Source: Caldifarciminota bacterium (lineage in GTDB: Bacteria > Hydrothermota > UBA3073). From it: a stretch of DNA of 55,980 bases. The notes under the pieces are model-generated. The model searched no databases. It saw only the letters and a program-made list of their open reading frames with translations, and was not told where the DNA came from. The position numbers were made by a program, and so were the translations under genes. The stretch covers positions 1-55,980 of the forward strand of contig JAGMCL010000042.1 of assembly GCA_023129165.1 (NCBI GenBank). Reading direction: 5' to 3'. This document shows, one piece after another, positions 13,627-45,047 of the stretch. Each line of letters starts with the position of its first letter. Position 1 is the first letter of the stretch.

Positions 13627-13742
13627 TCAGTCATTAATCATAATGAAATATCTAAAAGTATAAGATATGTCATAAAAGATAAATATCTCCCTTATTAAAT
13701 TGAGAATATAAAAAAATCTGAAATCTGAAGACCTGACCCTTC
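13576..13742. repeat. Element with perfect 29-bp inverted ends (gggtcaggtcttcagattt family)
   Basis: The arms 13576-13604 and 13714-13742 are perfect inverted copies containing gggtcaggtcttcagatt, around an A/T-rich centre of 109 bp. The left arm lies inside the end of the THEP1 gene and the right arm ends on the malQ stop codon. Single copies of the 22-bp core are at 33787-33808 and 48963-48984, so the family is mobile or was once. No transposase is present. Confidence 0.75.
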
Positions 13743-15241
13743 TATACTCTGCCATAAATTTCCGTCATTTCCTTTAACTTTAGTTTTAGTGACAATGTGA
13801 TTTCATCTGGTGAAAGCCGCCACAGCCAATTCCCTTTTGAAGTAGCTGGTCGGTTCATTCGAGCCTCTTCTCCAAGCCCAAGAATATCCTGCATAGGAAA
13901 TAATACTGTGTCAGCAACAGACATCATAACGAGTCTGATTAATTCCCAATTAAGTTCTTCAAGGGGTACTTCTCGACCAATATAGGAAAATAATCTCCTT
14001 ATATCATCGGGTTTTGCCTCTCTTTCAAACCATCCCCTTATTGTATTGTTGTCATGAGTGCCTGTATAGAAAACACAGTTCCTTACTACATTATGAGGTA
14101 TATAGGGATTTTTCTGGAAACCTTCATCAAATGCAAAGAGAAGAACCTTCATCCCTGGAAACCCATAACGATTCATCACTTCTATCACGTCAGGTGTGAT
14201 TACGCCAAGATCCTCGGCTATGATGGGTAGGTAAGGAAATCTTTTATTAAGTATATCAAAGAAATCCTTTGCAGGAGCTTTTATCCAATTACCATTAACA
14301 GCAGTCGTCTCTTCTGCTGGAACCTCCCAGTAGGCAACAAAACCTCGAAAGTGGTCAAATCTTATGAAATCGAATAATTTTAAATAATGCTCTACTCTCT
14401 TTATCCACCAATCATATCCTCTCTCCTTCAATACCTTCCAGTTATACACAGGATTACCCCAGAGTTGTCCTGTTTTACTGAAATAATCAGGTGGTACACC
14501 AGCAACAACATAAGGTCTTTTTTCTTTGTCAAGCTTGAATATCTCTGGATTTGACCAGAGATCTACACTGTCATAACTTATATAAATAGGTATATCTCCT
14601 ATTACCTGGATACCCTTCTTGTTACAATATTTCTTTAGCGACAACCATTGTTTTAGAAATATATACTGAATAAATTTCTCTCTCTCAATTTCATTATAAA
14701 GTTCATTCTTCAAAGACCGTAAGGTTTTGGATTGTCTATCCCGTATTTCAGTTGGCCATTCATTCCACATCTGCTCATGGAAATATGTTTTACAAGCGAC
14801 AAAAAGGGCATAATCATCAAGCCAATAGGAGTTTTTAGAACAGAAATTTTCGTATCCCGGATTTATTTTTATATTTCCAAAACGCTCATAGGCAATCTGA
14901 AAAATGTGTTTTTTATAGTTGGAAACTTTATTATAATCGACCTGATTAACCGGGAAATTAACTAAAGGAGAGATTTCTTCTTTAGTCAGTAACCCATCCT
15001 TTGCCATAAGAACAGGACTTATTAATAATGGATTTCCTGCAAAGACAGATATGCTACCATAAGGGGAACTTCCATGTGCTAAATTTGTAGGGGTAAGGGG
15101 AAGAATCTGCCAGTAACTCTGCTTGGTCTCAACAAGAAAATCTACGAATCTGTAGGCATCTGGTCCAAAATCCCCAACTCCGAAGGGAGAAGGAAGAGAT
15201 GTAATATGTAGAAGAATACCACTACCTCTTTTCATAAGCAT
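13742..15241 (-). CDS. malQ: 4-alpha-glucanotransferase (GH77)
   Basis: A 499-residue amylomaltase that moves maltooligosaccharyl units between glucans. The catalytic residues are Asp296 in FIRFDHFRG (nucleophile), Glu343 in IIAEDLG (acid/base) and Asp397 in YTGTHDNNT. The N-terminus RGSGILLHITSLPSPFGVGDFG and GDIPIYISYDSVDLW are typical. Length and motifs are those of the compact bacterial form. The start at 15241 (or Met3) lies 2 bp after the glgP stop, so both are on one message. With GlgP it would recycle short glucans to glucose 1-phosphate in the cytoplasm. Confidence 0.95.
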   Translation of the reverse strand: MLMKRGSGILLHITSLPSPFGVGDFGPDAYRFVDFLVETKQSYWQILPLTPTNLAHGSSPYGSISVFAGNPLLISPVLMAKDGLLTKEEISPLVNFPVNQVDYNKVSNYKKHIFQIAYERFGNIKINPGYENFCSKNSYWLDDYALFVACKTYFHEQMWNEWPTEIRDRQSKTLRSLKNELYNEIEREKFIQYIFLKQWLSLKKYCNKKGIQVIGDIPIYISYDSVDLWSNPEIFKLDKEKRPYVVAGVPPDYFSKTGQLWGNPVYNWKVLKERGYDWWIKRVEHYLKLFDFIRFDHFRGFVAYWEVPAEETTAVNGNWIKAPAKDFFDILNKRFPYLPIIAEDLGVITPDVIEVMNRYGFPGMKVLLFAFDEGFQKNPYIPHNVVRNCVFYTGTHDNNTIRGWFEREAKPDDIRRLFSYIGREVPLEELNWELIRLVMMSVADTVLFPMQDILGLGEEARMNRPATSKGNWLWRLSPDEITLSLKLKLKEMTEIYGRV

Positions 15242-17031: not shown

Positions 17032-20000
17032 TTATTTCACTATCGGTTCATTCAAGAAATCAGGTGGGGTCTTTCCTGAGAGAATATAAACATTCTTCAA
17101 CGTTTCTCTAAACATTTCATCCCATTCCTCATCACCCTCAGGAGTCTCCATATCTTCACCAAGCCACCAGAACCAGTCTGAACCCTCTGCAACATAAAGC
17201 TCCTCCAATGCCTTATCCGGGATATTTTCCCAGTTCTCTATATCCTTTCTGACTCTTAGAAGGTAATCCCATGCCTTGTTCTCCTCTTTTTCTCCTATCC
17301 ATATATCAAAATTTCCATTTATCCACGAACCTGCAGCAAGGTTGTTATCCAGGATATGTTGTGGCGGATTCTCGTTTAAGAACTCACTGACCGTGAGTGT
17401 TCTTATCCAATCAACTTCCTCCAATTTTGAATAAAGGGAATGGAAAAATTCCTTACCATCCTCTTTAAATGCTTCCCATGAGTTTTCACCGTCCATTATA
17501 ATAGAAACACAGGCAGGTTCGCTTTCATCTGCAAATCTCTTATGTATGTCATATAATCTTGCAATAAGATCATTTGCTGCTGCCTTACCTGGCATTGAGT
17601 TGTATCTAAATCCTACATCATCGGAAATTCTTGTATCTCTGAAGATGATAGATACTTCAATATCATTGAATCTTGCTCTATATGCTCTGTATTTATCTCT
17701 TTCATTAATCTTTCTCCCGAGTGATTTAGCAAGTATTTGCTCATCTGTTGCAATCCACTTTATTTTAGCATCTGCAAATATGGGAATTATCTCCTTTGCC
17801 ACTGAACCTTCTGATGGCCACATACCTTCTGGGTTTTCACCAAATAGTTGTCTATGGAACTCAACGGATTTATTAACCTGTACCTCAGCATCCTGTGGAT
17901 AGGAAAATCTGAATGGTAGCTTTCTATGATAAAGGTCTGTATCATATATGAGCGGCAGAATAGGATGATAAAAAGGAGTAGTTGTCACCTCGATTTTCCC
18001 TTCCTCCATTAGCTTTTTATGAACAGGTATTACTGCTTTCATAATCTCTATACATTTATCAAGGAGTTTGAGCTTTTCTTTTTCGGTGAATCCTTTACCC
18101 TTCTCAATCAGGTTTTTTACCGTTATTCTTTTACCCGTCACGAGCTCGACCTCACCTTTCTTGAAAGAGGGGTCAAACCATGCAAGATTATACCATACCT
18201 GCAGGTCTCTAAAATCCCCCACTGTATAATTCCTTATCGTTGATTCAATATCCACTTCTCCATCCTTCATCACCCTCTTTTCAAAAAGTTCCTTATATCT
18301 GGAATATGGTTCTATCATATTTTCCTTATTCAGAGCAAAAAAGTTATCGAGAATATATTCCTTTTCCTCTCTTGTAAGATTTTCAGCAGGCTTTAGAGTC
18401 ATTTCCATACATATATCCACAGGCTTTCCATCTTCATACATTCCTATCTCATCAAGAATCTGCAAAAGAAGGGATGGTGTCAGGTTTACTGTAAAATGGA
18501 CATTAGGATAGTCTTTGAGAATAGCCACCATATCATAGTAGTCCTTTGTCGCATGCAGTCTCACCCATGGCTTCTTATATATACCAGTATTTCTATTCTT
18601 AAAATATCTTGGCTGGTGTTGATGCCAGAAAAAGATTAAATTTAGGGGTTGACCTACTTTTTTATATGTCAAGGACTCACTCATTATATCCCCTTTACCT
18701 ACTTCTATCACAGAATTGAAACCCTCGAAACCATCAGGTACTTTTTGAGGGTTTTCTGGGTCAGAAATCCAGATTTCATCAACAATAAATTTATATAAAT
18801 ATCTCCCAGGCACAAGGTCAAAGGACCTCGTCCAGATTCCATTTTTCTCCTCCATAGGTGTCCCACCCCATCCAGTAAATTCACCTGCTATCTGAACAGA
18901 TTTCGCCTCTGGTGCATTAAGCTCAAACTCCACATGCTCAATTGTAATACCTTTCTCTTCCATAATATTATCTATATCACCTTCCTTCAATAAGTATATA
19001 CCACCCTCAAGAGGAGGAAGTGTTATTACCAACCTCTCATTTGCCTTAATATAATCACCAGTAATGGCATCCTGCCATATACCTGGTGCCTGTAAACTTA
19101 AAACTCTCCTATTATTTGAATTGTTTAGGGCGACAAGTACACAATCATTACCATCATACAAGATGTAGCAATATACCTCCTTTTCTAAAAGTATTTTTCT
19201 CCTATCTCCCCTTCTAATAGCACTGTGTTCCTTTCTTATCTTAAGTAGTCTTGATACATAATCGAGTATATCTCTTTCGTTCTTACTCAATTCATCTCCA
19301 AACCTCATCATCCTGCGATTGTCAGGGTCACCAGCACCAGGTATTCCAAATTCATCACCATAAAGGATTATAGGAGTTCCCTTTATAGTGAGAAGAAAGG
19401 TGAATGCAAGACGTAATCTTTTATATGATTCCTCATCAGGTTCCTTTGCACCCTCCCAGCCAACTACCTTTTCATCTCCTGCGAGTTCACAGTATGTAAT
19501 AAATCTCGAAAAATCATGCGTTCCCAAGAATGGACACATTATACTTCCTTCAGGATATACTTTCTCTGATTGGCTTATCGCATAATCAAGTGAGAAAAAA
19601 CCCTGCCTGCCTGAGAAGACATCTCTTATTACCCAGTAGAGGGGATAATCGAGTTGACCATTCAAAAGATTGTCTCCAATAAATGAAGATATCGTTTCCC
19701 TGCTTGATATGGTCTCGCCAAACAGAAAAAAGTCCCTCCCTATTTCCTTATTTAAGCTCTCTCGAAATTCTTTCCAGAAAACTACAGGCATATGTTTTAC
19801 AGCATCAAGTCTTGCACCATCTACACCAGTCTCCTTTATAAGCCATATGGTAGTATCAATAAGTGCATTTCTAACCTCTTCTTTTTCGTGATTTAAGGTC
19901 GGTGCGAAATCATCAAACCATGTAGTAAAGGGAAACTCGTCGAAGAGTCTTATATTTTTCCTTCCATCTTTAAGGTCGACATCTGTAAACCAGTCAGGGT

Positions 20001-20478
20001 GGTCCTTCCACCATGGATGGTTTATATGAACGTGATTAAATACAAGGTCAAGAACAACCTTGATGTCATGACTATGTGCAACTCTTACAAGTTCTTTTAA
20101 TTCCTCCATAGAACCAAACCTCGGTTCTACCTCTCTATGACTTACTGGCCAGTATCCATGATAGCCTGTAAATTTATGGTGAGGGGGCAGGGCATCTTTA
20201 TATGCCCCAGGGGGAGCCTTATATACTGGAGAGAACCAGATAGCATTCACTCCAAGTGATGAAAAGTAGCCATCTTTAATTTTATTAATTATACCCCTGA
20301 AGTCTCCACCTAAAAAATTGCATCTTTCATCGAGCTCCGGATCCTCAACAGGTGAATCATTAGATATATCACCACTTCTGAACCTATCAGTAACCATACA
20401 GTATATTACCCTATCCTGCCATGTGGTTTCGTTGGATATAGTAGACGTCAGAAAAATCAATGGTATATACATAAGCAT
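17032..20478 (-). CDS. GH13 alpha-amylase - CBM48 - GH57 fusion enzyme
   Basis: A 1148-residue protein carrying two unrelated glycosidase families. Residues 20-500 are GH13, with DLVFNHV, GARLDAVKH (nucleophile Asp225), LFGETIS (Glu255) and FLGTHDFSR (Asp322). Residues 515-595 are a CBM48-like module (VQIAGEFTGWGG, YLYKFIVDEIW). From 610 on is GH57, with HQHQP (619-623), GMWPSEGS (nucleophile Glu890) and WIATDEQ (acid/base Asp912). Both catalytic sets are complete. The start is ATG 20478 or 20472, behind ggaggt; 30 upstream bases are also open. A short hydrophobic N-terminus (MLMYIPLIFLTSTIS) suggests export, although it lacks a basic n-region. It lies between malE and glgP. The enzyme should act on starch or glycogen. 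Confidence 0.9.
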   Translation of the reverse strand: MLMYIPLIFLTSTISNETTWQDRVIYCMVTDRFRSGDISNDSPVEDPELDERCNFLGGDFRGIINKIKDGYFSSLGVNAIWFSPVYKAPPGAYKDALPPHHKFTGYHGYWPVSHREVEPRFGSMEELKELVRVAHSHDIKVVLDLVFNHVHINHPWWKDHPDWFTDVDLKDGRKNIRLFDEFPFTTWFDDFAPTLNHEKEEVRNALIDTTIWLIKETGVDGARLDAVKHMPVVFWKEFRESLNKEIGRDFFLFGETISSRETISSFIGDNLLNGQLDYPLYWVIRDVFSGRQGFFSLDYAISQSEKVYPEGSIMCPFLGTHDFSRFITYCELAGDEKVVGWEGAKEPDEESYKRLRLAFTFLLTIKGTPIILYGDEFGIPGAGDPDNRRMMRFGDELSKNERDILDYVSRLLKIRKEHSAIRRGDRRKILLEKEVYCYILYDGNDCVLVALNNSNNRRVLSLQAPGIWQDAITGDYIKANERLVITLPPLEGGIYLLKEGDIDNIMEEKGITIEHVEFELNAPEAKSVQIAGEFTGWGGTPMEEKNGIWTRSFDLVPGRYLYKFIVDEIWISDPENPQKVPDGFEGFNSVIEVGKGDIMSESLTYKKVGQPLNLIFFWHQHQPRYFKNRNTGIYKKPWVRLHATKDYYDMVAILKDYPNVHFTVNLTPSLLLQILDEIGMYEDGKPVDICMEMTLKPAENLTREEKEYILDNFFALNKENMIEPYSRYKELFEKRVMKDGEVDIESTIRNYTVGDFRDLQVWYNLAWFDPSFKKGEVELVTGKRITVKNLIEKGKGFTEKEKLKLLDKCIEIMKAVIPVHKKLMEEGKIEVTTTPFYHPILPLIYDTDLYHRKLPFRFSYPQDAEVQVNKSVEFHRQLFGENPEGMWPSEGSVAKEIIPIFADAKIKWIATDEQILAKSLGRKINERDKYRAYRARFNDIEVSIIFRDTRISDDVGFRYNSMPGKAAANDLIARLYDIHKRFADESEPACVSIIMDGENSWEAFKEDGKEFFHSLYSKLEEVDWIRTLTVSEFLNENPPQHILDNNLAAGSWINGNFDIWIGEKEENKAWDYLLRVRKDIENWENIPDKALEELYVAEGSDWFWWLGEDMETPEGDEEWDEMFRETLKNVYILSGKTPPDFLNEPIVK

Positions 20479-20825
20479 ATAACCTCCACAAAAAATTACA
20501 AATCTCAAGCACCCTGCCTATCGGCAGGCAGGCAAATAACAAACAAATCCTAATCATTAAAATATTCTAAACTCTCTTAATTACAGACGAAGGGACACCT
20601 GTCATTGCGAGTTCTAAACCATATGGTTTAGAGCGTGGCAATCTCATTTTTATTATACTATCGTTTTTAACTGACTTAAGGCTATCATTCCTCTTGGTAT
20701 TCCCTTGTATTCAATGTATGCGATTGCTTCGTCGTCCATAAGGACTCCTCGCAATGACATGAAAGGGAATATCAAAATGTGATTGCTTCATCCCGATGGT
20801 AATCCGGATTCGTAATACGAGATTT
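20479..20825. repeat. Intergenic repeats between malE and the fusion amylase
   Basis: It contains ccctgcctatcggcaggcaggc (about 20513), a CATTGCGAG unit with a central accatatggt palindrome (20601-20647), a facing copy gcgattgcttcgtcgtcc...ctcctcgcaatgac (20719-20760), and a third, decayed unit (20779-20820). The 1284-1388 block has the same parts in reverse order. No gene or promoter is seen. Confidence 0.65.
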
Positions 20826-22028
20826 TTAATACTCTTCTTCAAGGAGTTTGTCCACCTTCAGCTTTATGACGTCCAGGGTTTCCTTCACCGAGCGCTTTCC
20901 TGAAAGCGATGCCTCCATCTGTGGATTGACTGCTGTTTCTATTCCAGGATAGTCAGGTACTACAGGTCTTGGAACTGCTGTCTCCATCTGATTAAGAAAA
21001 ATCTCAAGATATGGATGTTTATCAAGGTCAACATCATCAAATGAGTTAATATTCACAGGAATCTGACCCAGATCATTTGCCCATTTTATCTGAATCTCCT
21101 CTGAGGTAAGAAATTTTAAGAAATCAAATGCAAGTTCTTTGTTCTCTGACCCTCTGAATATTACCATATTTGTGCCACCAACGGTTGTGACTGAACCAGC
21201 TATCCCTTCTGGAATCATACCAACACCAAAATCTATGCCTATATTAAGTAGTGGTTTCATTCTCCAGGGTCCATTTAATACCATACCATACTTTTCATTT
21301 TGAAAACCCATGTCAGGGTTAACAGCACCGGACTTCCATGCACCTGCCTCAATTTTGTACCTGCTATACAGGTCTATCTTAAACTGTAAGGCATCAATTC
21401 CCTCCTGAGAATTGAGGACACATTTCCCATCCATAATAAACCTTGCACCAAAAGTATAGAAGAAAGGAAGCGTCCACCATAAAGTATTCCTCATGCCGAA
21501 ACCATAAACCTCTTTATCTAAATCAGTAAGTTTCTCTCCATATTCTACAAACTCATCCCAGTTTGTTGGCGGTTTCTCGGGGTCAAGTCCTGCTTCTCTA
21601 AATAACTTTTTATTATAAAACAGACATATACAGTTTGTCTGGTCAGGAATTCCATATATCTTACCATTTATTATATTTCCTGATAGAGCGGCAGGAACAA
21701 GCTGGTCTTTTATCTCCTCTACACCGAGTTCATCAAGTGAACAAACTCCACCCCTTAGGGCGAGTTTACTTACAAAAGAGTAATCAACCCTTGCTATATC
21801 GGGTGCTGTACGGGTTGCAAGTGCAGTAAGAATCTTCTGTTCTGTTCCATCGAAAGGTATTCTCTGGATTTCGACTTCTATACCACTTATTTCTTCGTAA
21901 TCCTCAACTATCTCCTTAAATACCTTATGTTCTTCATCATTATAATTAACCCAGATAGAGATATTACCTGCTATAAGACCATTTGATAATACTAAAATTA
22001 AAAAAAAGACTGCAAGTACTCTTTTCAT
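20826..22028 (-). CDS. malE: Sugar ABC transporter substrate-binding protein (MalE-like)
   Basis: A 400-residue periplasmic binding protein of the family 1 (maltose/multiple sugar) type. It has a signal peptide (MKRVLAVFFLILVLSNGLIAG), the domain-1 start ISIWVNYNDEEHKVFKEIVEDYE, the family motif ALATRTAPDIARVD, and KIYGIPDQTNCICLFYNKKLF with the usual inter-domain hinge. No lipobox cysteine is visible, so it is probably soluble. The start follows a GGGGGT ribosome-binding site. It is the third gene of malF-malG-malE. Maltodextrin as ligand is inferred from the amylase and phosphorylase genes downstream. Confidence 0.87.
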   Translation of the reverse strand: MKRVLAVFFLILVLSNGLIAGNISIWVNYNDEEHKVFKEIVEDYEEISGIEVEIQRIPFDGTEQKILTALATRTAPDIARVDYSFVSKLALRGGVCSLDELGVEEIKDQLVPAALSGNIINGKIYGIPDQTNCICLFYNKKLFREAGLDPEKPPTNWDEFVEYGEKLTDLDKEVYGFGMRNTLWWTLPFFYTFGARFIMDGKCVLNSQEGIDALQFKIDLYSRYKIEAGAWKSGAVNPDMGFQNEKYGMVLNGPWRMKPLLNIGIDFGVGMIPEGIAGSVTTVGGTNMVIFRGSENKELAFDFLKFLTSEEIQIKWANDLGQIPVNINSFDDVDLDKHPYLEIFLNQMETAVPRPVVPDYPGIETAVNPQMEASLSGKRSVKETLDVIKLKVDKLLEEEY

Positions 22029-22297: not shown

Positions 22298-23104
22298 CTA
22301 TCCCTTAACTGCTCCCTCGGTTAAACCCTGTATGAAATATCTCTGTGTGAATAGAAATAGTAATACTATTGGAAATATTGAAATTGATGATGCTGCCATT
22401 CTTAGGGTATAGAGTTCCTCGTGTGCACTTCTGAACATAGCAAGACCCACAGGAACTGTATACATAGACTCTTTTGTAGTAACAATCAATTGCCAGAGAA
22501 AGTTGTTCCAGTTAAACTGAAAACTGAGTAAAAACACAGTTGCAACTATAGGCATTGATAGTGGTAAAATGACCCTATAAATTACACCAATTTCAGATGC
22601 ACCATCTATTCTTGACGCCTCAATGAGTGAATTCGGTATTCCTCGTATAAACTGTGTAAGAAGAAAAAGACCAAAAACATTTGCCAGGTGTGGTATCACC
22701 ATTGCCTTGTAAGAGTTTATCCAACCGAGCCTTGAAACGATAACAAACTGAGGTATCATAAACATCATCCCTGGGACCATCATAGCTGAAAGAAAGAGGA
22801 AAAACAGACCATTTCTAAAGAAGAATCTCCTCTTTGCAAATGAATATGCTGCTAATACAGCAAAAAGGGTAGAAAATATTCCTCCTAATGTAGAAACTAC
22901 AAATGAATTAAAAAAGTATCTCCCAAACTTGTATTGTGTAAGGACTAATTTAAAATTCTCAAGAGTAGGCTTCTCAGGAATAATCGTCATCGAAAGACCA
23001 GTACCCTGGGGCTTGAAAGATGTAACAAACATCCAGAAAAATGGGAAAAGTACAACCACAACGAGAATAATAAGGAAAATATAAATGAAAAATCTTCTAC
23101 TCAT
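22298..23104 (-). CDS. malG: Sugar ABC transporter permease (MalG-like)
   Basis: A 268-residue inner-membrane permease with six hydrophobic segments. The EAA loop that contacts the ATPase is IEASRIDGASEIGVIYRVILPLSMP. The N-terminus (VVVLFPFFWMFVTSFKPQG) is typical of the MalG subfamily. The start, preceded by aaaggt, is 3 bp after the malF stop, so the two are co-translated. No ATP-binding subunit is encoded in the window; a shared MsmX/MalK-like ATPase elsewhere must be assumed. Confidence 0.9.
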   Translation of the reverse strand: MSRRFFIYIFLIILVVVVLFPFFWMFVTSFKPQGTGLSMTIIPEKPTLENFKLVLTQYKFGRYFFNSFVVSTLGGIFSTLFAVLAAYSFAKRRFFFRNGLFFLFLSAMMVPGMMFMIPQFVIVSRLGWINSYKAMVIPHLANVFGLFLLTQFIRGIPNSLIEASRIDGASEIGVIYRVILPLSMPIVATVFLLSFQFNWNNFLWQLIVTTKESMYTVPVGLAMFRSAHEELYTLRMAASSISIFPIVLLFLFTQRYFIQGLTEGAVKG

Positions 23105-23107
23105 AAA

Positions 23108-24028
23108 TTACCTTTCTCTTAAAAGTCTAAAACTTATAAGCGATATGGTTAACGAAATTATAAGAAGCACGAATGATATAGCCGCAGCATATCCAAGCTT
23201 AAGTGAACGAAATTCCCTAAAAAGATACATACCCGTTACTCTGGTAATACCAACTATATTACCCTTTAAGTTAATCATTGGTCCTCCATCCCTTGTCATA
23301 CCATAAAATTCAGCAAATGCAGAAAGAGAAGCAATAGTGCCTGTTACGACAAGAAATAAAATCACTGGTTTTATAAGAGGTATAGTTATATATCTGTGTT
23401 TTGCAAAACCTGAAACACCATCTATAGAAGCAGCCTCGTATAGAGACTGGGGTATGTTATTGATTGAAGCTATAAACAGTATCATTCCGAATCCTGCATT
23501 TTTCAATGTCATTGCAGCAACTATTGCTGGCATTGAAGTAGCAGGTGTTGAAAGTAATGGTGGTATTTTCAAACCGATAAGTTCGAATAATTTCATCACT
23601 ATCCCGTATGGACTTGAATACAGTAATGTCCAGACAATTGCAACGACAAACACATCGAGAACAAATGGAAGAAAGAAACATGTCCTAAAAATCCTACTAC
23701 CTTTTATTCGTCCTACCAAAAAGACTGCAAGAAGAAAGGAAAAAACAATTCCTATCGGAATTGAAAGTGCTGCATAATACAATGTCATGAGAATTGCCCA
23801 CCAGAATTCAACATCGTGGAAAAGTTTTGTATAATTTCTTCCACCAACAAGTTTAAGTCCACCGAACACATCATAGAGGTCAGTGACCCTATGGAAACTA
23901 AGGATGAGTGAATAAATTATGGGATATAGTAAAAAGATACAGAAGATAATGAGAAAGGGAAGTATTAGAGAGAAGGATATAAGATTTTCTCTACCTGAAA
24001 TAGAAGTATCTCTAAATAACCTCTTCAT
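23108..24028 (-). CDS. malF: Sugar ABC transporter permease (MalF-like)
   Basis: A 306-residue inner-membrane permease with six hydrophobic segments. The EAA loop is YEAASIDGVSGFAKHRYITIPLIKP. It lacks the large periplasmic loop of E. coli MalF, as do most family members. First gene of the minus-strand import operon. The start ATG at 24028 has no clear ribosome-binding site. A TAAAAT lies 10 bases before it, so a leaderless internal transcript is possible besides the long transcript from the promoter at 24444-24472. Confidence 0.9.
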   Translation of the reverse strand: MKRLFRDTSISGRENLISFSLILPFLIIFCIFLLYPIIYSLILSFHRVTDLYDVFGGLKLVGGRNYTKLFHDVEFWWAILMTLYYAALSIPIGIVFSFLLAVFLVGRIKGSRIFRTCFFLPFVLDVFVVAIVWTLLYSSPYGIVMKLFELIGLKIPPLLSTPATSMPAIVAAMTLKNAGFGMILFIASINNIPQSLYEAASIDGVSGFAKHRYITIPLIKPVILFLVVTGTIASLSAFAEFYGMTRDGGPMINLKGNIVGITRVTGMYLFREFRSLKLGYAAAISFVLLIISLTISLISFRLLRER

Positions 24029-24443
24029 CTATTGTAAGATTTTAAAAAATAGAGGGTATCCAAAAGTCTTTTAATAACAGATAAAAGATTTGTAGGCACG
24101 AATTCAATTCGTGCTGAATACATTTGCACAGTTTAAAACCCTGACTGCCGTCAGGCAGGTGTGCCTACAAAGTACATTACAATTCTTCCCAATAATGAGA
24201 TTGCTTTGTTGCTTTCACTCCTCGCAATGACAGACCATACTCCCGTCATTGCGAGACTGAACAAAGTGAAGACGTGGCAATCTCATCCTTTAATATAATC
24301 GTTATCATTAACAGTCTAAAGACTGTCACTCCTCTCGTTACTCCCCTTATGTTATGAGGGAGTGACAGCGTTTACGCTGTTAAAAAATGCGATTGCTTCG
24401 TTTTAGCTTATAAAAAACAGTCTTCATATAATTACTCTGAAGG
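24029..24443. repeat. Long malF leader filled with dispersed repeats
   Basis: It holds a gtaggcacgaattcaattcgtgc hairpin (about 24092), gactgccgtcaggcaggtgtgcctac (24145), two facing CATTGCGAG units (24196-24232 and 24244-24288), and gactgtcactcct with gggagtgacagcgtttacgctgtt, which can pair (24328-24381). A transcript from the malF promoter would carry all of this as a leader of about 410 bases. No gene is seen. Confidence 0.6.
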
Positions 24444-41092: not shown

Positions 41093-41189
41093 ATTGGCAC
41101 AAATTGAATTTGTTTATAGTTAACCCACCGCTAAAGCAGTGGGCTACATAAAATTTGTTATTATTCTATCTGAAATAAATGGAGGTGAT

Positions 41190-44100
41190 ATGAAGGAATT
41201 CATGTTTATCCTTATGCTTCTTGCTCCTCCATTACTCTCTCAGGACCAGGCATGGTGGGAACCAGAAAATCCTTCTCCCGGGGATTCTGTAAGTATTTTT
41301 TATAATGTAAGACAGGGAACACTACCTGAGAGTAGCAGTTGGATTAAACTACACTGGGGCATAAATGGATGGGATGAGCCGCCAGAAGTTCTCTGGCCTC
41401 CAGGCACAACACCATGGGGAGATGGTCATGCTGTAGAATCACCTATGATGCAGGATAATGACACAATATGGTCTATATCACTTGAAACCAATCAATCAGT
41501 AGAAATTATAGATTTTGTTTTCCATAACAACCTTGATCAGTGGGACAACAACTCGGGACAGGATTGGCATATATACTTAGGTGAAATTCCATCGACAATT
41601 CCTGTAAGTTTCATTCTTGACACCCGCAGCTGTAATTTTTCGTATACAGGCTCATCCATATCCCAGGTAAATCTTGCTGGTTCATTCAATGGATGGTCAA
41701 CCACTGCAATGCCTATGATACAGATGGTCAATCCATATATTTGGCTGAGATGGGTTGACCTTGTTGAGGGAACACATGAATATAAGTTTGTCATTAATAA
41801 CTCAGTATGGACCACTGACCCTGATAATCCACATTATACAGGAGAATTTCAGAACGCAGTAATAATTGTAGAAAAGGACCCTAATCCAAAAATATATATA
41901 GACTCACCTCTTTGTGGTTCTGTATTCTATGACATCGATACCTTGAATATACATGCGTGGGTTACAGAAGGTGACGATGAAATACCTTTGGATGAGTCTA
42001 CAATTGTAGTAAAACTTGATAGTTTTCCTATCACACATACTTTTGACCCAGATTGCCTAACAATTACTGCAAATGTAAACGAAATATCTTATGGCCTCCA
42101 CTTAGCATCTATATCATTATCAGATACAGCTGGAAACTTTAGAGAAGAAACTTCTTCATTTGGCATATACCCTGAAGGAAGCGGGTATTATTCTGTAGAT
42201 GCCATATGTGATGAAAATTATTTATATCCTGTTTATATTCCTGAGGGTTCATCTGATATAATGGACATTAATATAAAAAAGAACATCGATTCGCTTGCGT
42301 TTACAGTTCGTGTAAGATATCTTTCAGAATACACAAAACTCGGAATACAAATTTCAACAACAGATGTTGCACCTGTGGTAGAGGTTCCCCCTCCTTTAGA
42401 AATGAAAACAAGAGAATGGAATGGTAATGGTATCTTCTTCACTATAATGGATACTTCCTCTCCATTTTTTAATCCCGATTTAGATAACAGAGTATATATC
42501 CAGAGATACCCACCTGTACTTGATGATTCCATAAATGTATTAATATCAGGAGATAGTCTGGTTTTCCAGATAGGTATCTCACTCCTTGAGGAAATTCTTG
42601 GCAGCTATAACGTTCCCTGGTACTTTTACCTATTTTCATTTATCCCTGACCTTGAGGCAGATTCATCAATAGGAGGAAGTGACCACTATATAGACCCGGA
42701 TATATATGACGTAATGTTTTTTGAGAACAGAGAACTTCAGGAGAAACTCCTTGCAAACTATATACCTGACGGTGAACTTGGTGGTCCAAGAATGGCATCC
42801 CTTGATGCGGTTGGAAGAGGGATTGAAGGGATAGAGGCATACGATATAGATAGCTCACTCTTTAATCCTGGACCGGTTGTTCGTCTTTTGACCCGAAGTG
42901 GTATCGTATATGATTCGATATATACAATTGATGGCACAATAAGTGACAACTCTATTGCAGAGGCGATTCTGACCATAAATGGAATGGATACTACGATATC
43001 TGTTACATCAGGCTTTTTCTCTGCATCCATATTACTTGATGAGGGAGATAATATCATATCCTGCAGGGCACAAAATAGCGAGGGATTCTTTGGCTTTTCA
43101 CCCTCAATAAATCTGGAATTGATCGTCGACCATAAACCAAAGGCAATTATTGATACGGTATTTTTTGTAGGTGAGAGCATCTTTGTTGCTGGAACCTCAA
43201 GTTATGACCCTGATGGAGATGGACTAACGTATCTCTGGTATCCTGATAGCCTTAATCCAGAGGAAATATTTTTTAGTGAACCAGAATCAGTCATTACATC
43301 ATTCTCTATACCCTCTACTAATGGTGAATACTATTTCAATCTGAGTGTAGAGGACCCTGATTCAAATCATGATTTTGCAAGAGCTTTTATTACAGTAAGT
43401 GACAGTGGAGTTAGTATAGCAGGTACTGACAGCATCTCAGAATGGCTTAGAAATGCAATTATATATGAAATTTTTGTCCAGTCATTCAGTGATAATGGTG
43501 ATTTTGATGCGATAAGTGAGAGGATAACTGAGATTAAAGACCTTGGGGTGAATTGTATATGGTTTATGCCCATAAATAAGAGTACATATACCAATGGATA
43601 CTCCGTTACGGATTACTACGGTATAAGGACAGATTATGGAACAGAAGAGGACCTGAGAGAATTCCTGTCACTTTGTAGAGATAATGGTATAAAGGTAATA
43701 ATTGACCATGTAGTAAATCACTGTTCGAACCAGCATCCCTGGATGATAGATGCACAGTGCTTTGGGGAATACTCTCACTTCTATCATAATTTTATGTGGG
43801 GTCCAGGTGGAAATTATTACTATACAGCAGGTGCTGATTTGCCTGATTTAAACTATGGAAATGAACACCTGAAGAAATACCTTCTTGATATGGCTGTGTA
43901 CTGGTTAAGTGAGTTTGACCTATATGGATTCAGGTGTGATATGGCATGGGCAGTAGAGAACAGAGACCCTGAATACTGGATAACCTGGAGAGAGATACTT
44001 AAATCAAAAAAGCCAGAAGCCTTCTTACTTGCTGAGGCAACTTCAACAAACTTCATATACTTTGACTCAAGATTTGATGCAGCCTATGATTGGAATCTAC

Positions 44101-45047
44101 ACCATGAATCACCTGCAAGCTTTGCCAATATATTTGATGGTGGTGTTACTGGAAGTGAGATTAACACACTGCATAATGCCATTAGAAATTTTGGTTATCC
44201 ATTTCCAGAGGATAGGTTCCCCCTAAGATTCCTTGAAAACCACGATGAAACAAGATATATTGCATATAATACACTCGAGCAGACAAAACTCATGGCTGCA
44301 CTACTCCTCACCATACCAGGTATGCCACTCATATATTCTGGACAGGAGGTGGGTGAAGTCACATTGAGGGATAAGATAGACTGGAGTGATCCCAATAATT
44401 TAAGACCATACTATAAAAAACTATGCTGGATAAGAAATAATTTCTCTTCTATAAGAAATTCAGAGCTTACCCGTTTAAGCACATCTTCACAAACAGTATA
44501 TTCATTTTACAGGAAAAATAACGAAAACATAGTGATATGTGGTTTTAACTTCTACTCTGGTGGTAATTACACAATATTTAATATACCAACTGCTGAACTC
44601 GGAATACATCCAGATTCCACTTACTACATGAACGACGTACTTAACAATGAATATATACAGGTTTCTGGTTCAGGTCTATCAAATTTTGGAACAAACCTCC
44701 CGGGATATGGTGCAAAGATATTCGTCCTATCTGATTCAATACTAATTGGAATCGAAGAACCTGCTTTCTATGTAAATAAACTCAATCAAAACCATCCGAA
44801 TCCATTCAAAGGAACTACAGATATTAGATTTCAGATACCAGATTTCAGTAAAGTCTCCTTAAAGATATACGATGTTTCTGGAAGATTGGTCAGGACACTT
44901 ATAGATGGTAAGCTCGATGCGGGTTATCACAGGTCAAGATGGGATGGAAAAGATGAAGAGGGAAGAAATGTCGGTGCTGGTATCTATTTTTGCAAATTCG
45001 CCAATAATCAGTTCAGTGATACACGCAAGATGATTCTTGTGAAGTAG
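41190..45047 (+). CDS. Multidomain surface GH13 alpha-amylase with starch-binding modules and sorting-type C-terminus
   Basis: A 1285-residue secreted enzyme. The start at 41190 follows ggaggtgat and a signal peptide. Order: a CBM25/26-like module (about 18-135), a CBM48-like module (145-230: VNLAGSFNGW, HEYKFVINNSVW), an Ig-like domain (to about 325), a 200-residue beta domain resembling the glucodextranase C-terminal type (335-550), an Ig-like domain (560-645), a PKD-like domain (650-738), the GH13 barrel (about 750-1190) and the shared sorting domain (1208-1285). Catalytic residues: Asp917 in GFRCDMAW, Glu949 in LLAEAT, Asp1019 in FLENHDE; region I is IIDHVVNH. It should cut starch or glycogen outside the cell and feed the TonB receptor and MalEFG. 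Confidence 0.88.
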   Translation: MKEFMFILMLLAPPLLSQDQAWWEPENPSPGDSVSIFYNVRQGTLPESSSWIKLHWGINGWDEPPEVLWPPGTTPWGDGHAVESPMMQDNDTIWSISLETNQSVEIIDFVFHNNLDQWDNNSGQDWHIYLGEIPSTIPVSFILDTRSCNFSYTGSSISQVNLAGSFNGWSTTAMPMIQMVNPYIWLRWVDLVEGTHEYKFVINNSVWTTDPDNPHYTGEFQNAVIIVEKDPNPKIYIDSPLCGSVFYDIDTLNIHAWVTEGDDEIPLDESTIVVKLDSFPITHTFDPDCLTITANVNEISYGLHLASISLSDTAGNFREETSSFGIYPEGSGYYSVDAICDENYLYPVYIPEGSSDIMDINIKKNIDSLAFTVRVRYLSEYTKLGIQISTTDVAPVVEVPPPLEMKTREWNGNGIFFTIMDTSSPFFNPDLDNRVYIQRYPPVLDDSINVLISGDSLVFQIGISLLEEILGSYNVPWYFYLFSFIPDLEADSSIGGSDHYIDPDIYDVMFFENRELQEKLLANYIPDGELGGPRMASLDAVGRGIEGIEAYDIDSSLFNPGPVVRLLTRSGIVYDSIYTIDGTISDNSIAEAILTINGMDTTISVTSGFFSASILLDEGDNIISCRAQNSEGFFGFSPSINLELIVDHKPKAIIDTVFFVGESIFVAGTSSYDPDGDGLTYLWYPDSLNPEEIFFSEPESVITSFSIPSTNGEYYFNLSVEDPDSNHDFARAFITVSDSGVSIAGTDSISEWLRNAIIYEIFVQSFSDNGDFDAISERITEIKDLGVNCIWFMPINKSTYTNGYSVTDYYGIRTDYGTEEDLREFLSLCRDNGIKVIIDHVVNHCSNQHPWMIDAQCFGEYSHFYHNFMWGPGGNYYYTAGADLPDLNYGNEHLKKYLLDMAVYWLSEFDLYGFRCDMAWAVENRDPEYWITWREILKSKKPEAFLLAEATSTNFIYFDSRFDAAYDWNLHHESPASFANIFDGGVTGSEINTLHNAIRNFGYPFPEDRFPLRFLENHDETRYIAYNTLEQTKLMAALLLTIPGMPLIYSGQEVGEVTLRDKIDWSDPNNLRPYYKKLCWIRNNFSSIRNSELTRLSTSSQTVYSFYRKNNENIVICGFNFYSGGNYTIFNIPTAELGIHPDSTYYMNDVLNNEYIQVSGSGLSNFGTNLPGYGAKIFVLSDSILIGIEEPAFYVNKLNQNHPNPFKGTTDIRFQIPDFSKVSLKIYDVSGRLVRTLIDGKLDAGYHRSRWDGKDEEGRNVGAGIYFCKFANNQFSDTRKMILVK

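Follow-up and report, generated by a model that had tools for sequence, protein, structure and literature searches.

The question raised by this locus is whether a single bacterial polypeptide really carries two complete glycoside hydrolase domains of unrelated fold, GH13 and GH57, and, if so, what such a protein would do with α-glucans. The window, by which we mean the whole analysed stretch of 55,980 nucleotides, contains the gene on its minus strand (17032..20478) as one open frame of 1148 residues plus the stop codon. The Pfam matches, each above its cut-off, follow one another in the order GH13 (residues 29–381, 7.8e-49), AMPK1_CBM/CBM48 (524–597, 1.6e-11), and GH57 (615–1043, 3.6e-64), in agreement with the initial annotation, which had recognized GH13, a CBM48-like module, and GH57 in this one chain.

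Reading frame and conservation of the fusion gene

The start of the gene is placed at ATG 20478. The TTG at 20508, which is the mechanical start of the open reading frame, was rejected because the sequence GGAGG, readable as a Shine–Dalgarno element (20483..20487, minus), lies 4 nt 5′ of the ATG, and because the orthologs in two other genomes, G003 and G004, also start with MLMYIPLIFLTS. Residues 1–15 (MLMYIPLIFLTSTIS, 20434..20478, minus) form a short hydrophobic N terminus, of which residues 1–12 are identical in G003 and G004, with variation thereafter. This segment is probably a Sec signal, judging from its conserved hydrophobic character, and the protein may be periplasmic or exported, an assignment made uncertain by the lack of the usual positively charged n-region.

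The ortholog in G003, a member of the same family but of another genus, comprises 1171 residues, is 75% identical overall, and has the same domain order with no stop or frameshift; in G004 the gene covers the GH13 half as far as the contig end, so that a fusion there is putative. Identity between the window and G003 is 76.0% in the GH13 part (dN 0.148, dS 1.79, dN/dS ~0.08) and 76.6% in the GH57 part (dN 0.129, dS 1.74, dN/dS ~0.07). Purifying selection on each half is strong, with synonymous divergence of the two fusions near saturation; therefore, both active sites are maintained. A stop at residues 595–610, proposed at the outset as the mark of a sequencing error joining two genes, was sought and is absent, and with the frame also kept in G003 that objection falls away.

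The catalytic halves and the central module

The GH13 half (residues 16–499, 18982..20433, minus), delimited by Pfam, homologs, a structural model, and a fold match, consists of the catalytic domain and a C-terminal β domain. The alignment of homologs assigns Asp225 (19804..19806) as the nucleophile, Glu255 (19714..19716) as the acid/base, and Asp322 (19513..19515) as the transition-state stabiliser, all encoded on the minus strand. Located in conserved sequence regions (CSR) II–IV, each of these residues is kept in at least 90% of 37 GH13 homologs, and the triad named initially thus stands. In the AlphaFold model of the full-length protein the mean pLDDT is 60 and the GH13 half is poorly predicted, owing to the small number of GH13 rows in the alignment. 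In the model of the GH13 half aligned and predicted on its own (pLDDT 86, pTM 0.89), the (β/α)8 barrel and the C-terminal β domain are both present, and a Foldseek comparison with 5a2c gives an E value of 3.5e-42 and a TMt of 0.89.

By sequence as well as by fold, the nearest enzymes to this half are the α-amylases of Anoxybacillus (5a2a) and Geobacillus thermoleovorans (GTA, 4e2o), of GH13_45 type, which share its full catalytic triad but are 30% identical to it and have no fused second catalytic domain. The Geobacillus enzyme is a member of GH13_45, a subfamily whose CSR-V motif is LPDlx (PMC11239784). At the aligned position of the GH13 half this motif is absent, with APTLN in its place, and on sequence grounds the half resembles GH13_45 and would be placed near that subfamily rather than inside it.

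The central module (residues 512–600, 18679..18945, minus) is a CBM48 of the AMPK type, scoring 44.6 bits against PF16561 (cut-off 26.8) and 23.8 bits against PF02922 (cut-off 22.4), and its fold matches the glycogen-binding domain of AMPK β with a Foldseek TMt of 0.8–0.9. Residues Trp537, Lys563, Trp570, and Asn588 occupy what we take to be the glucan-contact positions of AMPK β1, and are thus putative contacts.

The GH57 half (residues 612–1148, 17035..18645, minus), identified by Pfam, phmmer, and Foldseek, is of the amylopullulanase type. Its closest known counterpart is the amylopullulanase of Aquifex aeolicus (PDB 9jlq, 9jlr, 8zyi), which has the same fold across the entire half (TMt 0.87–0.90, 33–34% identity in Foldseek; phmmer 1.6e-82) and the same catalytic Glu/Asp pair. 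In contrast to the fusion, the Aquifex enzyme is a stand-alone protein of 477 residues, with neither CBM48 nor GH13. The nucleophile is Glu890 in CSR-3 (17809..17811, minus), equivalent to Glu256 of the Aquifex enzyme, and the acid/base is Asp996 in CSR-4 (17491..17493, minus), located within the motif IMDGEN and equivalent to Asp352; both are present in 34 of 34 homologs. The Aquifex crystal structures carry mutations at both counterparts, D352N and E256. Of the pair proposed in the initial annotation, Glu890 is retained, whereas Asp912 has to give way to Asp996 as the acid/base, since it is replaced by glycine in the G003 ortholog and aligns with Asp278, not Asp352, of the Aquifex enzyme.

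A branching activity had also been proposed for this half. The fingerprints of GH57 branching enzymes are HxHLP in CSR-I and ELF(Y)GHW in CSR-IV (PMC11206854); both were looked for in the GH57 half and are absent, with HQHQP (residues 619–623) and DGENSWE (996–1002) in their place. The fold comparison reaches a TMt of at most 0.60 with branching enzymes and 0.46 with 4-α-glucanotransferase, far below the values for amylopullulanase, and the branching option is not sustained. The fold is suggestive of amylopullulanase specificity, and the leading candidate for a debranching enzyme in this genome is the GH57 half.

Gene neighbourhood, origin, and distribution

The genes flanking the fusion, all on the minus strand, encode upstream a maltodextrin-type ABC substrate-binding protein (20826..22028), a MalG-like permease (22298..23104), and a MalF/UgpA-like permease (23108..24028), and downstream an α-glucan phosphorylase (TIGR02094, 15244..16809) and the GH77 4-α-glucanotransferase MalQ (13742..15241). 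From their sequences, these neighbours make up a predicted set for maltodextrin uptake and degradation. A gap of 347 nt separates the fusion from the nearest transporter gene and makes co-transcription uncertain. The window contains three copies of the element CATTGCGAGGAG (1316–1327, 20745–20756, 24218–24229), where 0.12 would be expected. The middle copy, which lies upstream of the fusion gene, is matched by an inverted partner, TGTCATTGCGAG, at 20600–20611, with which it forms an intergenic palindromic repeat.

Farther along the window are a gene for a TonB-type receptor and, on the plus strand (41139..45047), a second GH13 protein of 1302 residues, a probable surface amylase by its domain content, with an N-terminal CBM48 and a C-terminal FlgD_ig/Por_Secre_tail domain of the Por-secretion type. 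The Por_Secre_tail would suggest type IX-like surface sorting in WOR-3. The whole genome contains a single GH57, that of the fusion, and two GH13 domains, both inside the window; it has a weak GDE_C match, and a search for a full glycogen synthase match yielded none, only one limited to a 59-position fragment. This inventory favours catabolism, and the breakdown of external branched glucan fits it better than storage metabolism.

The genome belongs to the uncultured candidate phylum WOR-3. In the 147 WOR-3 genomes, the usual form of the protein has a signal peptide, one to three CBM48 copies, GH57, and often PF09985, and only in the window's family does GH13 stand in front. Thus, the unfused CBM48(×1–3)-GH57(-Glucodextran_C) proteins differ from the fusion in the absence of GH13, in the number of CBM48 copies, and, in many cases, in a C-terminal PF09985 that the fusion lacks. 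Residues ~512–1148 of the fusion are nevertheless collinear with these proteins, linker included, at 48–54% identity, and this collinearity points to the addition of GH13 to a CBM48-GH57 unit that already existed.

Sister family f3 retains the separate genes. Its gene order is malF-malG-malE-(CBM48-GH13) in G006, where the GH13 is 52% identical to that half of the fusion, and GH13, phosphorylase, and then a convergent GH57 in G008, whereas the window has malF, malG, malE, fusion, phosphorylase, malQ. The fusion occupies the GH13 slot of the unfused locus, so that it would have taken up the adjoining GH57. In trees, the fusions group with G006/G008 for both GH57 (98/95) and GH13 (100/99), and this agreement, together with the separate genes at the same locus, indicates that the fusion arose by joining neighbours. 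In the sister family it is GH13 that carries an N-terminal CBM48, with GH57 carrying none, whereas the single CBM48 of the fusion lies ahead of GH57; either side may have lost or gained the module. A second, stand-alone GH57 paralog is found in G003 and G004 (L128:5286-7079 and L129:938-2809, 51–52% identical) and is missing from the window's genome.

The draft state of the assembly (153 contigs) and the presence of GH13 and GH57 as separate genes in the sister family might raise the suspicion that an assembly or frameshift artefact joined two neighbours. The independent genome G003, however, shows the identical fusion order at 76% identity and near-saturated dS, the GH57 gene of the sister family is convergent to GH13, so that a missing stop could not produce the order seen here, and the linker between CBM48 and GH57 can be aligned with its counterpart in relatives that are not fused. 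The probability of an artefact is negligible, and assembly error is excluded because G003 keeps the architecture in frame and both halves are under purifying selection.

The distribution of the fusion was followed with an alignment-based scan of genome contigs, which found the relatives; a scan with a single sequence had given none. No GH13-GH57 fusion was found outside the window's family among the 147 WOR-3 genomes, nor was a further one present in the best 80 GH57 loci of a collection of 84,980 species. The search likewise found no such frame in 350 Chloroflexota, 39 genomes of the L056 phylum, 47 Eisenbacteria, 237 Omnitrophota, and 17 genomes of the L074 phylum, a sample of ~690 genomes of other phyla; it covered GH57 of this subfamily and, in the large groups, scored two to three candidates per genome. 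The fusion is genuine, conserved, lineage-restricted, and rare, and its component domains are ordinary. In the open-access literature we found no characterised GH13-GH57 protein, which accords with the initial remark that no characterised enzyme with this exact order was known, and among the genomes searched the fusion is not common, so that the second objection set out initially, that the fusion might be common and already characterised, falls as well. A mention of “GH13 and GH57 domains” in Sandaracinus refers to separate proteins.

The long GH57-containing frames of Chloroflexota and Omnitrophota, considered as additional GH13 fusions, proved to be GH57-GT5 fusions. Each is a single frame of ~1020–1300 residues in which an amylopullulanase-like GH57 is joined to a GT5 glycogen synthase (L117–L119, L121, and L122 in Chloroflexota; L163, L164, and L166 in Omnitrophota), with L120 being of the same type but cut by a contig end; the type was checked with Pfam on L118 and L163. 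These frames are a different GH57 fusion, of a hydrolase-type domain with a glucan synthase. In another phylum, L056 (L127:1607-5293) has a CBM48-GH57 gene closely followed by a GH13 gene with a SusG/maltogenic C-terminal domain, in the reverse order and unfused.

Proposed function and known counterparts

Taken together, we consider it probable that the protein is an exported, double-headed α-amylase/amylopullulanase that degrades α-glucan and that arose in one WOR-3 family when GH13 was joined to a CBM48-GH57 gene lying next to it in the locus. The N-terminal GH13, of α-amylase type, would cut internal α-1,4 bonds in starch or glycogen, the C-terminal GH57, of amylopullulanase type, would cut α-1,6 branch points and further α-1,4 bonds, and the central CBM48 would keep the branched polymer close to the two active sites. 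Linear maltodextrins released in this way would then enter through the ABC transporter encoded next to the fusion and be processed by the neighbouring MalQ and phosphorylase. Domain homology and the maltodextrin-uptake neighbourhood both lend good support to the paired action on starch or glycogen that the initial annotation had suggested.

Several features of the protein allow for other readings. GH57 as a family includes 4-α-glucanotransferases and branching enzymes, and the GH57 of a Pontibacter PUL acted as a 4-α-glucanotransferase (PMC11206854), so that the GH57 half could be mainly a transferase that remodels glucans released by the GH13 half. The missing branching fingerprints, a fold much nearer to amylopullulanase than to transferases, the dedicated GH77 enzyme two genes downstream, and the incomplete glycogen synthase match make this improbable. 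The junctions, in turn, bear on how closely the heads cooperate. Compared with G003, identity falls to 52% at residues 490–520 and to 33% in the CBM48–GH57 linker, with the frame kept, and such short, poorly conserved connections suggest loosely linked modules. On this reading the fusion would merely hold the two enzymes at a fixed ratio and export them together, each acting independently and without catalytic synergy. We give this a real chance but find it rather unlikely, as the CBM48 is shared between the two heads and there is a precedent for synergy in the two-headed PulA of Gardnerella vaginalis, in which 5% of activity is left once either of its two active sites is inactivated (PMC10465358).

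Exactly at the CBM48/GH57 boundary lies an in-frame ATG, Met599 (18684–18682), preceded by AAAGGGG, which may be an internal start or a relic. A methionine codon occupies the equivalent position in G003, again behind a purine-rich stretch, despite the low identity of the linker, and a free, signal-less GH57 working alone in the cytoplasm could be a second product of the gene. However, some ten further internal start codons match equally well or better upstream, so that Met599 may be there by chance, and a dual product seems very improbable to us. The most elaborate combination, in which a chimera of two unrelated folds held on glucan by the shared CBM48 achieves true endo-amylase/debranching synergy and the gene also yields the signal-less GH57 from Met599, is extremely doubtful.

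The preferred reading, a double-headed α-amylase/amylopullulanase, has practical as well as evolutionary implications. The fusion would be a ready template for liquefaction and debranching of starch by one enzyme. Additionally, the separate-gene and fused forms in related families of one phylum represent a natural before-and-after pair for asking whether fusing an endo-amylase with a debranching enzyme improves starch breakdown.

Among known systems, the mal cluster of Thermococcus (PMC8790579) brings together the same set of activities, GH57 amylopullulanase and GH13, around a maltodextrin ABC transporter, but in an archaeon and as separate, unfused genes. Two α-glucan active sites per polypeptide, as in the fusion, are found in the GH13-GH13 α-amylase–pullulanases, represented by the Streptomyces type (PMC7410926) and by G. 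vaginalis PulA with its two amylase domains (PMC10465358). The Streptomyces type has a CBM41 between the amylase and pullulanase heads, where the fusion has an AMPK-type CBM48. While both heads of these enzymes are GH13 (β/α)8 barrels, the second head of the fusion is GH57, an unrelated (β/α)7 barrel. The fusion most likely works as they do, as their non-homologous counterpart, and the double-headed amylase–pullulanase design, known with two GH13 heads, would also have been reached with a GH57 head.
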